Positions 35,445 to 50,711 of a DNA stretch of 50,711 nt are shown piece after piece. The stretch is taken from NCBI GenBank assembly GCA_016195385.1, contig JACPZS010000094.1:1-50711 (forward strand), in the 5' to 3' direction. The position numbers and the translations under genes were made by a program. The stretch's first letter is position 1. Each line of letters opens with the position of its first letter. This stretch comes from Verrucomicrobiota bacterium (GTDB taxonomy: Bacteria > Verrucomicrobiota > Verrucomicrobiia > Limisphaerales > JACPZS01). A model generated the notes under the pieces. That model was not told where the DNA came from. It saw only the letters and a program-made list of their open reading frames with translations, and searched no databases.

Positions 35445-37370
35445 ATGATCGCATCAAAAGATTCCTTTGAGCCGCACAGCAGCGAGCAACTGCCCGCCAG
35501 CAAAAAGGTTTTCGTGGCCGGCACGATTCATTCCGACGTTCGCGTGCCGATGCGGGAGATCGAACTGACGCCGACGAAGTCCTACACCGGCGCGGTCACG
35601 ACGAACGACTCCGTGCGTGTCTATGACTGCGCCGGCCCGTGGGGTGATCCGGCGTTTACCGGCAACTCCGACGATGGTCTGCCTGCGTTGCGGCGAGATT
35701 GGATTTTGAAGCGCGGCGATGTGGCGGAATACGACGGTCGCGAGGTGAAGCCGATGGACAATGGCTACCTCTCCGGCAAGCACGCCGAGTTCGCCAGCAA
35801 GGCGGAGAAGAATCGGCTCGTGGAGTTTCCCGGATTGCTTGGGCAACGCCGCAAGCCGCTCCGCGCGAGCAAAGGCCATCCAGTCACGCAGCTTTGGTAT
35901 GCCAAGCAGGGCATCATCACGCCGGAAATGGAATTCATCGCCATCCGCGAGAACATGGGCCGCGCGAAGATGGCCGACATGGCGAAGGACAATGTTCGCA
36001 ACGTCCTCGACAAGCAGCACGCCGGTTCAAGTCAGCTCGCCAGTAGCGAGTATTCACCCAGCGTTTTCCGCCGCTTCCCCCAGCGCATTCCAAAGGAAAT
36101 TACGCCTGAATTCGTCCGCTCCGAAGTCGCCGCCGGCCGCGCCATCATCCCGAACAACATCAATCATCCTGAATCCGAGCCGATGATCATCGGGCGCAAC
36201 TTCCTCGTGAAGATCAACGCCAACATCGGCAACAGCGCCGTCGCGTCCAGCATCGAGGAGGAAGTCGAGAAGATGCGCTGGGCCACCAAGTGGGGCGCGG
36301 ACACCGTCATGGACCTCTCCACCGGCAAGAACATCCACGCCACGCGCGAATGGATTCTCCGCAACTCAAAAGTGAACGGCAAAGCCGAAGACCTCACTTG
36401 GGAACTCTTCCGCGACACCCTCATCGAACAAGCCGAGCAAGGCGTGGATTACTTCACCATTCACGCCGGCGTGTTGCTGCGCTTCGTGCCGCTCACCGCG
36501 AACCGCATGACCGGCATCGTCTCGCGCGGCGGCAGCATCATGGCCAAATGGTGTCTCTCGCATCACCAGGAAAATTTCCTCTACACCCATTGGGACGACA
36601 TCTGCGACATCATGGCCGCCTACGACGTTTCATTTTCAATCGGCGACGGATTGCGTCCGGGTTCAATTGCCGATGCGAATGATGAAGCCCAGTTTGGTGA
36701 ATTAAAAACTCAAGGTGAACTGACGGAAAGGGCTTGGGCAAAGGGTGTGCAAGTAATGAACGAAGGCCCGGGGCATGTTCCCATGCACATGATTGAAGAG
36801 AACATGGCGAAACAACTTGAATGGTGTCACGAAGCTCCCTTTTACACCCTTGGCCCGCTGACAACGGACATCGCCCCAGGCTACGACCACATCACGAGCG
36901 CAATCGGCGCGGCAATGATTGGTTGGTATGGCTGTGCAATGCTTTGTTACGTCACGCCCAAAGAACACCTCGGCCTGCCGAACAAGAAGGACGTGAAAGA
37001 CGGCGTCATCGCCTACAAAATTGCCGCCCACGCCGCCGACCTCGCCAAGGGACATCCGGGTGCGCAGTATCGGGATAATGCCCTCTCCAAAGCGCGGTTT
37101 GAATTTCGATGGGAGGATCAATTCAATCTCTCGCTTGATCCCGTCACGGCCAGAGAATTCCATGATGAAACCCTGCCGCAAGAAGGAGCGAAGACCGCTC
37201 ACTTCTGTTCCATGTGCGGCCCGCACTTTTGCAGCATGAAGATAACGGAAGACGTGCGGAAGTATGCAGCGGAGCAAGGCATCGCCGAAGAAGAAGCGTT
37301 GAAGAAAGGGATGGAAGAAAAATCCCGCGAGTTCACCGAGAAGGGCAGCGAGCTTTACTCGAAACGGTAG
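35445..37370 (+). CDS. thiC: phosphomethylpyrimidine synthase (chimeric 3' end)
   Basis: A 641-residue radical-SAM enzyme that converts AIR to HMP-P, the pyrimidine precursor of thiamine. Visible features are [17 protein letters not shown]-like [70 protein letters not shown] and the C-terminal cluster motif C588-x2-C591-x4-C596. Up to about 36640 the DNA is GC-rich with host-like codons. From GDGLR onward (about 36644) synonymous sites become markedly A/T-richer (tttggtgaattaaaa instead of ttcggcgaactcaaa in the downstream fragment). The 3' quarter was therefore probably brought in by the defence cassette that follows. The frame is intact, so the enzyme should be functional. A TPP riboswitch precedes it. 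Confidence 0.96.
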
Positions 37371-37371
37371 T

Positions 37372-37408
37372 GCGGGCGTCCCGCCTGCCGCAACGGGCGA
37401 CCCGCCCG
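37372..37408. repeat. paired GC-rich hairpins after thiC
   Basis: Two small hairpins follow the thiC stop: GCGGG-CGT-CCCGC (37372-37384) and CGGGCG-ACC-CGCCCG (37394-37408). No T-tract follows directly. They resemble dispersed GC-rich intergenic repeats and may also protect or terminate the thiC transcript before the convergent genes that follow. Confidence 0.5.
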
Positions 37409-49612: not shown

Positions 49613-50655
49613 CGATGCCCACACCTGTTGAAATCAAGAAGTCGTTCAGTGCCGCGCGCATCCTCGGCAACGGCGACGACCGCGTGACGCTTTCCGAGAA
49701 CGAATTGTTTTGTCTGCTGTCGCAGTGTTGCCGCGACCTCGGGCTTGCTGCCGGAATCTCGAAACTGCCAGCGCTTTCGTCTCCGCCGCCGAGCAACGAC
49801 TATTACCGTCTTCCGTTGGCGTGGTTTCAAACTCCGCAAGCTGGTTGTCCATCCGCTGCGGCGCTTGTCGAGAGCCTTGCTGAATGCGTCGCTCATGAAC
49901 CCGACTTTCGGCTCTACTTTGAGAATCTCTCCACGCTCCACAAACGGCGGGTGAAGTATCAGCGCATACTTTCCACTCAGCCGAAGCCGACGATGAACCA
50001 GATTGGTCCTCGCAGCCTGCTGGAGTTCGGTGGTGTGAATGAGGGGTTGCTCGCGTCGTGGATTGTCTGGCGCAAATGGATTTTCGACATAGACAATCGC
50101 GCAGCGCAAGAGACGGGCTATTTGTTTGAACCGGTGCTGGCGAGTTGTCTCGGTGGTGAAGCGGTCGGCTCGAAGAACTCGCCCGTCAAACGCTTGAACG
50201 AACGCGGCGAACCGACCGGCGATGGCCGCCAGATTGACTGTTACGACGGCGAAACCCAACTCGCTTACGAATTCAAACTGCGCGTCACCATTGCCGCCAG
50301 TGGTCAAGGCCGTTTTGGCGAGGAACTTTCCTTTCCACGCGAAGCTCGCGCTGCGGGGTTGACGCCCGTGCTCATCGTTCTCGACCCAACGCCTTCGCAT
50401 CGTCTCAGCGAACTGATTGCGGTGTTCAATGCGTGCCAAGGCAAACATTACGTTGGTGCGGACGCCTGGGCACACATGGATTCCAAAGCCGGCAAGACTA
50501 TGGCGGTTTTCCTCGAACGCTACATTCGTCCACCGCTTACGGAGATGGCGAAGCATGAGGATGCCAAGCCGGAGGCAATTCACCTTTCGTGGACGAAAGA
50601 TGAGATTCACGTTCAAGGAACGAAAGCGAGCATTCGCATCCCACGAAAGAGTTGA
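49609..50655 (+). CDS. PD-(D/E)XK type II restriction endonuclease (putative)
   Basis: A 348-residue protein whose ATG (49609) overlaps the methyltransferase stop. The nuclease core is GRQIDCYD (D210) and LAYEFKLR (E221-x-K223), followed by GQGRFGEELSFPREARAAGL and VLIVLDPTP, a typical alpha/beta continuation of PD-(D/E)XK enzymes. Similarity to a known recognition type cannot be judged from sequence. Context with an m5C methyltransferase strongly suggests the cognate restriction enzyme. A second ATG at 49615 is possible. The stop (TGA 50653-50655) lies inside terminal repeat R2. Confidence 0.82.
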   Translation: MTMPTPVEIKKSFSAARILGNGDDRVTLSENELFCLLSQCCRDLGLAAGISKLPALSSPPPSNDYYRLPLAWFQTPQAGCPSAAALVESLAECVAHEPDFRLYFENLSTLHKRRVKYQRILSTQPKPTMNQIGPRSLLEFGGVNEGLLASWIVWRKWIFDIDNRAAQETGYLFEPVLASCLGGEAVGSKNSPVKRLNERGEPTGDGRQIDCYDGETQLAYEFKLRVTIAASGQGRFGEELSFPREARAAGLTPVLIVLDPTPSHRLSELIAVFNACQGKHYVGADAWAHMDSKAGKTMAVFLERYIRPPLTEMAKHEDAKPEAIHLSWTKDEIHVQGTKASIRIPRKS

Positions 50656-50711
50656 ACCGAGTTCGCAGAAAATTTTTACGCGAGTTGAATTTGAAAAGTT
50701 TTGCCCAAGTT
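50651..50711. repeat. cassette terminal repeat R2 (truncated by window end)
   Basis: This is the second copy of the cassette end, matching R1 over its whole visible length with about eight differences. It starts at the last codons of the endonuclease gene, so the repeat has been fused directly to the gene. In cassette A thiC homology resumes 24 bp after the repeat; here the window ends before that point. Confidence 0.8.

Follow-up and report, generated by a model that had tools for sequence, protein, structure and literature searches.

Genetic elements such as e14 at icd, the SCC elements at rlmH and SGI1 at trmE encode a recombinase and use one fixed site. They bring a replacement 3' end for the gene that they enter, displace the old one and can stand in tandem arrays, and in these respects they resemble a group of cassettes that we describe here, starting from the gene thiC in a 50,711-nt stretch of DNA (the window). 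The window is the entire contig G000:C141 of the 263-contig genome of a Verrucomicrobiota bacterium of the order Limisphaerales. The unit of these cassettes consists of a replacement 3' part of a host gene, cargo genes and a terminal sequence that we call END; the host gene stays whole with its new 3' part, and the old 3' part lies behind END.

The terminal sequence END and the gene pieces behind it

An earlier note on this DNA described one repeat of about 60 bp closing both cargo blocks of the window. This repeat was recovered as 56 nt at positions 43372–43427 and 50656–50711 (88% identical), and is part of the larger END of 75–95 bp. Further copies, which the note had proposed to look for in relatives, were found: within the order, END matched 32 of 320 genomes, from 25 of 118 genera, a count that may be too low, as at most two candidates were scored per genome, and that includes one genome not confirmed by the profile (G048) and one matched only at E 0.002 (G105). 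A profile search gave 51 copies in the fetched loci. Across the 48 copies that were aligned (three could not be anchored and were left out), the centre of END, TTTTTACGCGAGTTGAATTTGAAAAGTTTTGCCCAAGTTGAA, is strongly conserved, mostly with 1–2 bits per position. Scanning 84,980 species genomes for an exact 22-mer returned 21 stretches, titled as Verrucomicrobiota, as lower groups or only as 'bacterium'; viral contigs held no exact 22-mer, and phage and plasmid records gave only matches of 24–37 bp at E 0.3. END folded no better than shuffled sequence as DNA (three copies, both strands; z-scores -0.25 to 1.35), and as RNA its z-scores were 0.18 to 2.36 (two copies, both strands); with no stable fold, a hairpin or attC site was ruled out. 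In several genomes a REP-like palindrome (GTGCGAGCCGCAC) was seen by eye to be inserted inside END or its tail (Table 1).

A 3' piece of a host gene on the same strand follows within 150 bp for 35 of the 51 copies, namely thiC in 30 cases, thrS in three, and ilvD and a ubiD-like gene in one each. Repeated insertion into thiC, with replacement of its 3' end and displacement of the old ends, is supported, but thiC is not the only target, because END also precedes 3' pieces of thrS, ilvD, gcvP and the ubiD-like gene. The thiC pieces start at codon 419 (12 copies), 498–499 (7), 462–464 (6), and 381, 405, 411, 412 and 417 (one each), and these junctions fall into six groups of positions; the thrS pieces start at codon 482 (one) or 494 (two). 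With one kind each for ilvD, gcvP and the ubiD-like gene, there are about eleven kinds of junction, two of them in thrS. Among the 16 uncounted ENDs, one is directly followed by gcvP (L138; C-terminal part of the model, E 2.7e-71), one has a thiC piece that overlaps the END call (L164), two show short thiC-like stretches by eye (L139 and one END of L150), and one is the window's second END, which the contig end truncates. The ubiD-like gene is the least certain target, since it stands behind a divergent END (E 2e-5) and has unrelated neighbours upstream; the piece itself matched at Pfam E 1e-23 and NCBIfam E 1e-33, and served as its own query in the count.

Of the 35 copies, 22 also have a piece of that gene upstream on the same contig and strand, at a distance of 0.65–10 kb and with cargo between. 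Only in L010, from the window's own genome, does another gene lie upstream, a thiC tail ahead of a thrS junction. Clear examples are G112, with a thiC array (L148) and a thrS array (L149), and G142, where a single contig (L146) carries three ENDs. For 25 of the 51 ENDs, by our count, a codirectional open reading frame (ORF) of at least 50 aa stops no more than 34 bases from the END match, and the cargo ORFs of at least 100 aa in the 22 two-sided cassettes run with the host gene in 49 cases and against it in 18. Placed behind the host gene and mostly in its direction, the cargo genes may share its transcription. As a separate observation, the thrS tails of L010 (1730–2197, tblastn) and L143 (8991–9020, by eye) run into an apparent thiC tail remnant, which looks like the trace of a thiC cassette redirected to thrS.

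Some contigs end inside thiC pieces or END (the window, C154, L047, L059 and L083), as might be expected if the arrays were tandem duplications or assembly chimeras of a repeated gene. We consider this very improbable: full gene, cargo and END stand on one contig in seven loci of five genomes and three families, with different cargo (Table 1), END is common to five host genes, and empty sites exist. In addition, the two thiC copies of the window are only 73–83% identical over codons 420–520, which rules out a recent duplication of thiC. The empty sites, which the earlier note had suggested seeking in relatives, are those of G042 (of the same genus as the cassette-bearing G214), G021 and G050, each with a single thiC; the 20-kb stretches read there contained neither a displaced piece nor END. 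Two of the seven one-contig loci (L151 and L156) yielded no ilvD piece behind END.

A second boundary family, END2, of about 120 bp, occurs in four of the 320 genomes. It precedes thiC pieces that start at about codons 456–457 (two copies) and 487–494 (two copies), and a fifth copy stands without a thiC piece. Inspection by eye of the gene pieces lacking END recognised no shared boundary beyond END2. Fragments of thiC were also seen to be split at two recurrent points.

Mosaic thiC genes and the spread of the cassettes

Native 3' ends and alleles of thiC were inferred from relatives, against which the switch points were likewise read. The full thiC of the window has a native-like 5' part up to about position 36624 and a foreign 3' part from about codon 412. 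Codons 394–412 are 98% identical to their best matches (median of all 94%), and over codons 412–430 the median drops to 75% with a best match of 93%; third-position identity with six relatives falls from 79–89% (codons 380–420) to 29–47% (codons 420–460). Both measures bear out a composition switch reported near 36644. Past the switch, the window gene is closest to a displaced fragment in G142, which matches it at 93%, 89% and 96% in three of the four bins that follow. The window's own displaced fragment, 6 kb downstream and directly behind END copy 1, had been placed at 43451–44177 with a switch at about 43830, in good agreement with our boundaries (Table 1). It is native-like over codons 419–538 (best matches 94–100%, medians 85–96%), and after about codon 538 it resembles another cassette tail, of a type present in G017 (96% over codons 556–574, 94% over codons 574–592). 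A third tail relic, formerly given as 37426–37474, is probable only (Table 1).

We read the two switches as two successive end replacements, a reading that would fit contig C154, which goes on with a thiC piece from codon 498. When this contig is reversed, the last 41 bases of the window overlap it exactly, all inside END; since END is a repeat, the join is one that we infer. Outside the window, the same genome has another five thiC 3' pieces, spread over four contigs. As rpoB gave a single match per genome in nine of nine genomes (by family search; thiC by DNA search), this multiplicity of thiC lies above chance. In a survey of 58 genomes (one per family of the order, the window's own included), at least 12 have more than one true thiC piece by our reading of the table, matches outside the gene not being counted.

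Between seven genomes of different families, third-position identity of thiC is 32–87% over codons 20–260 and 58–97%, mostly above 75%, over codons 260–420. It stays high to about codon 600, barring the window after codon 420, G002 after codon 500 and some pairs with G021 (codons 420–460) or G046 (after codon 580). The corresponding means for rpoB are 45–62% in 21 pairs of seven genomes, six of them shared with the thiC set; this range leaves out G002 (a partial gene that was misread, 25–28% amino acid identity) and G017 (partial; its pairs without G002 give 51–64%). When six other genomes were compared with G014, the high thiC core was found in one (L026) and partly in another (L027). Blocks of 18 codons are 98–100% identical between families, and the partners change along the gene. 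Codons 260–600 of thiC look horizontally exchanged across families, even where no cassette is near.

The shared part of thiC begins upstream of every END junction seen, and is therefore not caused by a cassette that carries only the gene part behind the junction. Foreign sequence starts at about codon 412 for a junction at 419 and at about codon 540 for a junction at 498 in the window (the latter junction via C154), and at about codon 520 for a junction at 498 in G017. A thrS comparison that seemed to show upstream homogenisation was dropped, as the G003 copy concerned starts at codon 359.

The cross-family blocks, the shared part upstream of the junctions and the switch points away from the junctions lead us to place homologous recombination through the host gene narrowly first. 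Tentatively, and with slightly less than even confidence, we propose that tandem gene-restoring cassettes spread largely by such recombination, with END as the boundary of the element. A donor with the intact gene on the left and a duplicate 3' part on the right could recombine homologously on both sides into any recipient copy of the gene; given this arrangement, no integrase would be needed and the gene would not be broken. Homologous entry would carry along END, its junction with the gene and the cargo, and would let cargo swap between gene tail and END. New cassettes would enter at the gene, and older ones would lie further downstream and decay. END itself would be the element's own boundary, used by an activity that rarely made new junctions. 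By eye, the sequences to the right of the junctions have no common motif and most junction types have their own END tail; on these grounds, each junction type probably arose once or a few times and then spread.

Several points weigh against this proposal. Plain homologous recombination needs no END, so a conserved non-coding END at five host genes means that something specific to it must exist or have existed; the conserved core is partly a product of the search, as the 22-mer and BLAST steps favour it. The best single 40-codon windows of rpoB reach 64–85% in the 21 pairs. The shared thiC core is also present in G021 and G050, with no cassette nearby, so the exchange of thiC may have another cause. 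In the window, only about 20 bp separate the first switch from its junction, which a site-specific event would fit as well, and G028, G037 and G112 do not discriminate, as their copies are 91–100% alike at the junction and show no switch there.

Such a site-specific event would be expected if END and the carried start of the gene served as attP, the gene interior served as attB, and a tyrosine recombinase encoded elsewhere (an integron integrase, Xer or another) moved circles in trans. The closeness of the window's first switch to its junction, a conserved END that meets thiC repeatedly at codons 419, 498–499 and 462–464, and a second boundary family meeting similar places in thiC are all consistent with this, as is the occurrence of tyrosine recombinases somewhere in all 13 END-bearing genomes searched. 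These genomes are incomplete (74–97%) and in draft contigs. Neither a tyrosine recombinase (PF00589, E up to 1e-8) nor a serine recombinase (PF00239, 1e-6) was found inside a cassette in any of the 13, in line with the earlier claim that the cassettes have no recognisable integrase, and no recombinase is among the 25 commonest of the 145 Pfam families of 104 cargo proteins. The sole PF00589 match on an END-bearing contig lies 65 kb from END (G112:C28), and no PF00239 match shares a contig with END. In G002 just two PF00589 matches were found, and their length and score make both Xer-like in our reading, which speaks against a trans-acting enzyme; one of them, of Xer-like size, was met upstream of thiC, on a contig where no END was found. 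Integron integrases above the cut-off occur in 5 of 11 END-bearing and 13 of 44 other genomes, and none is on an array contig among the matches listed. With no clear co-occurrence with END, the integron integrase seems an unlikely driver, and a serine recombinase in trans was rejected because 4 of the 13 genomes have none at E 1e-6. The lack of a common motif beside the junctions, the fold of END, and two of three readable switch points lying 20–40 codons off the junction further count against site-specific movement, which we regard as doubtful. In G112, four trios of tyrosine recombinases with identical scores, presumably RIT-like, were observed away from the array contigs (C17, C56, C60 and C75).

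One-ended or RNA-templated insertion would also explain why the END side is defined and the gene side homologous, why positions vary, and why a cassette carries part of the very gene that it enters. In this scheme END would be the specific end of an RNA or single strand that spans gene tail, cargo and END; this end would be joined to the gene interior, and homology would close the other side. The prevailing direction of the cargo would agree with such a template. Reverse transcriptases, however, occur in only 8 of the 13 END-bearing genomes and not in the window's own, and the END tails particular to most junction types point to descent rather than repeated creation; we find this explanation improbable. 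A reverse transcriptase acting in trans was rejected, as five of the 13 (incomplete) assemblies have none at E 1e-6. One reverse transcriptase does occur on the array contig G088:C25; it follows a displaced thiC piece and so stands where the cargo of an older cassette would be.

Taking recombination through the host gene as the preferred reading, it is possible, to a degree that we put just short of an even chance, that the cassettes form an integrase-free class with housekeeping genes as vehicle, a working gene end of their own, arrays, and cargo shuffled between families, and that some machinery reading END re-aimed the class from thiC to thrS, ilvD, gcvP and the ubiD-like gene.

Cargo, window features and thiC neighbours

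We hand-picked 104 cargo proteins from the cassettes. Methyltransferases are the commonest matched class, and are undercounted because near-copies of shared methyltransferase modules (L047, L083 and L091) were left out. The description 'defence cassettes' suits the many that carry anti-phage genes, among them SPARTA, PDC-M23, PDC-S06 and an AccI-like endonuclease, but does not cover the remaining cargo: a photolyase with a PQQ-repeat protein, a histidine kinase with a LytTR regulator, an ABC-transporter ATPase, an NADH-dehydrogenase-like protein, a short-chain dehydrogenase and a GNAT acetyltransferase. Different cargo at one thiC point, as had been anticipated, was found across cassettes. IS3-family matches (4 of the 104 proteins) are read as passengers.

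The window's methyltransferase, last gene and END are 90.7% identical to G037 (2485 nt) and 82.7% identical to L091 (2386 nt), and a methyltransferase module beside END is common to G017 and L083 (87.1% identity). The module shared with G037 and L091, together with END, meets junction codon 498 in the former and 411 in the latter. Between cassettes that share the module, the gene adjoining the thiC tail gives no DNA match, which suggests that cargo is exchanged in modules. We also observed that, in the loci listed in Table 1, the module next to END is repeatedly a DNA methyltransferase and the gene next to the host tail is variable.

By its PADLOC matches, the pair in cassette 1 would be an ordinary member of SPARTA, a short prokaryotic Argonaute (pAgo) with a TIR-APAZ partner, here carried as cargo. 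SPARTA thus holds from the earlier 'SPARTA plus SSS operon'; the SSS label had been given to the 609-aa protein (38376–40205, minus strand), observed to have no Pfam or NCBIfam match. For cassette 2, described as Hachiman plus restriction-modification, the C5 methyltransferase is supported. HamA and HamB are not the best matches of the first two genes, which are closer to the candidate system PDC-M23A/B, and the last gene, which might be the restriction enzyme partner of the methyltransferase, matches no family. Neither tRNA genes nor Rfam families at the gathering score were found in the window.

Table 1. Positions of the window's features, and loci or sites in other genomes.
Feature	Position or loci	Strand	Evidence or remark
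Full thiC, target gene	35391..37370	+	Pfam ThiC_Rad_SAM E 2.4e-174; identity and third-position profiles
Probable relic of a further thiC tail	37417..37463	+	47 nt, 79% and 81% identical to two other tails
Cassette 1, three ORFs (144, 178, 609 aa)	37472..40205	-	no Pfam match; 609-aa ORF also without NCBIfam match
Cassette 1, TIR-APAZ protein of SPARTA type	40471..41850	+	PADLOC E 1.2e-58; Pfam TIR_2
Cassette 1, short prokaryotic Argonaute (pAgo_I)	41819..43333	+	PADLOC E 1.8e-169
END copy 1, right boundary of cassette 1	43358..43443	+	nhmmer E 6e-21
Displaced thiC 3' part, codon 419 to stop	43452..44177	+	ThiC model E 2.9e-131; second switch near 43.81 kb
Cassette 2, PDC-M23A-like, weak HamA similarity	44213..45016	+	PADLOC E 3.5e-89; HamA E 6.9e-7
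Cassette 2, PDC-M23B-like DEAD-box helicase (HamB-like)	44950..48171	+	PADLOC best E 0; HamB E 4.9e-58
Cassette 2, C5 cytosine DNA methyltransferase	48263..49612	+	Pfam E 2.1e-65
Cassette 2, last gene, adjoins methyltransferase	49594..50655	+	ORF opens at 49315; no Pfam/NCBIfam match
END copy 2	50646..50711	+	cut by contig end
Full gene, cargo and END on one contig	thiC: window, L046, L148, L150; thrS: L149; ilvD: L151, L156		
Methyltransferase module beside END	L047, L048, L049, L083, L091, L136, L155, window 48263-50711		
END2 copies	L210 12114-12245; L054 8045-8165; L220; L221; L223		
REP-like palindrome sites	L059 3939-4050; L150 10430-10570; L158 5903-5989; L142 5984-6020; L161 3531-3638		

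Upstream of thiC, an MgtE-like transporter is common to four families and a TPR protein to four, three of which also share an Fe-S protein there (names taken from the G050 copies). The genes downstream mostly differ, apart from a few pairs in common, including one that links G050 and G021.

Meaning and comparison with known systems

If the proposal is true, defence genes and other cargo cross bacterial families inside housekeeping genes without an integrase, by a route that escapes searches keyed on integrases, tRNA sites or phage hallmarks, and this would help to explain the variable gene content beside thiC, thrS and ilvD in the order. END would then be a direct handle for finding new systems, every copy marking a cassette, and the cassettes would make it possible to test gene transfer in which the entered gene is restored. 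No paper on such cassettes was found among the listings and opening parts of abstracts returned by a literature search.

Several known systems share single features with the cassettes. Integron and CALIN arrays likewise consist of compact tandem cassettes, in which a boundary site often directly follows the last gene; in contrast to these, the present cassettes have no hairpin site and, among the matches listed, no integrase found beside the array, and include a piece of the host gene in the unit. Elements that use XerCD (IMEX, pdif modules) also have no recombinase of their own, dif-like sites being a feature of those elements. Homing by gene conversion of the flanks likewise co-converts flanking gene sequence at conserved target genes; here, however, no homing nuclease was recognised among the cargo families shown, and the gene is restored, not spliced.

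The nearest kind are the gene-end-restoring elements, and the earlier comparison with e14 at icd is apt for the replaced and displaced gene end: the window carries the replacement 3' end, and the old 3' end lies on the far side of the cassette. It does not extend to an encoded site-specific recombinase, of which none was found in the 13 draft genomes, or to one fixed attachment site, the thiC junctions alone forming six groups. Compared with e14, SCC and SGI1, the cassettes are compact (0.65–10 kb) and have one END at five host genes and many positions. Their novelty as a class of their own rests on these two tested features of the nearest kind, the encoded recombinase and the fixed site, and a trans-acting enzyme of known kind would make the cassettes a variant.

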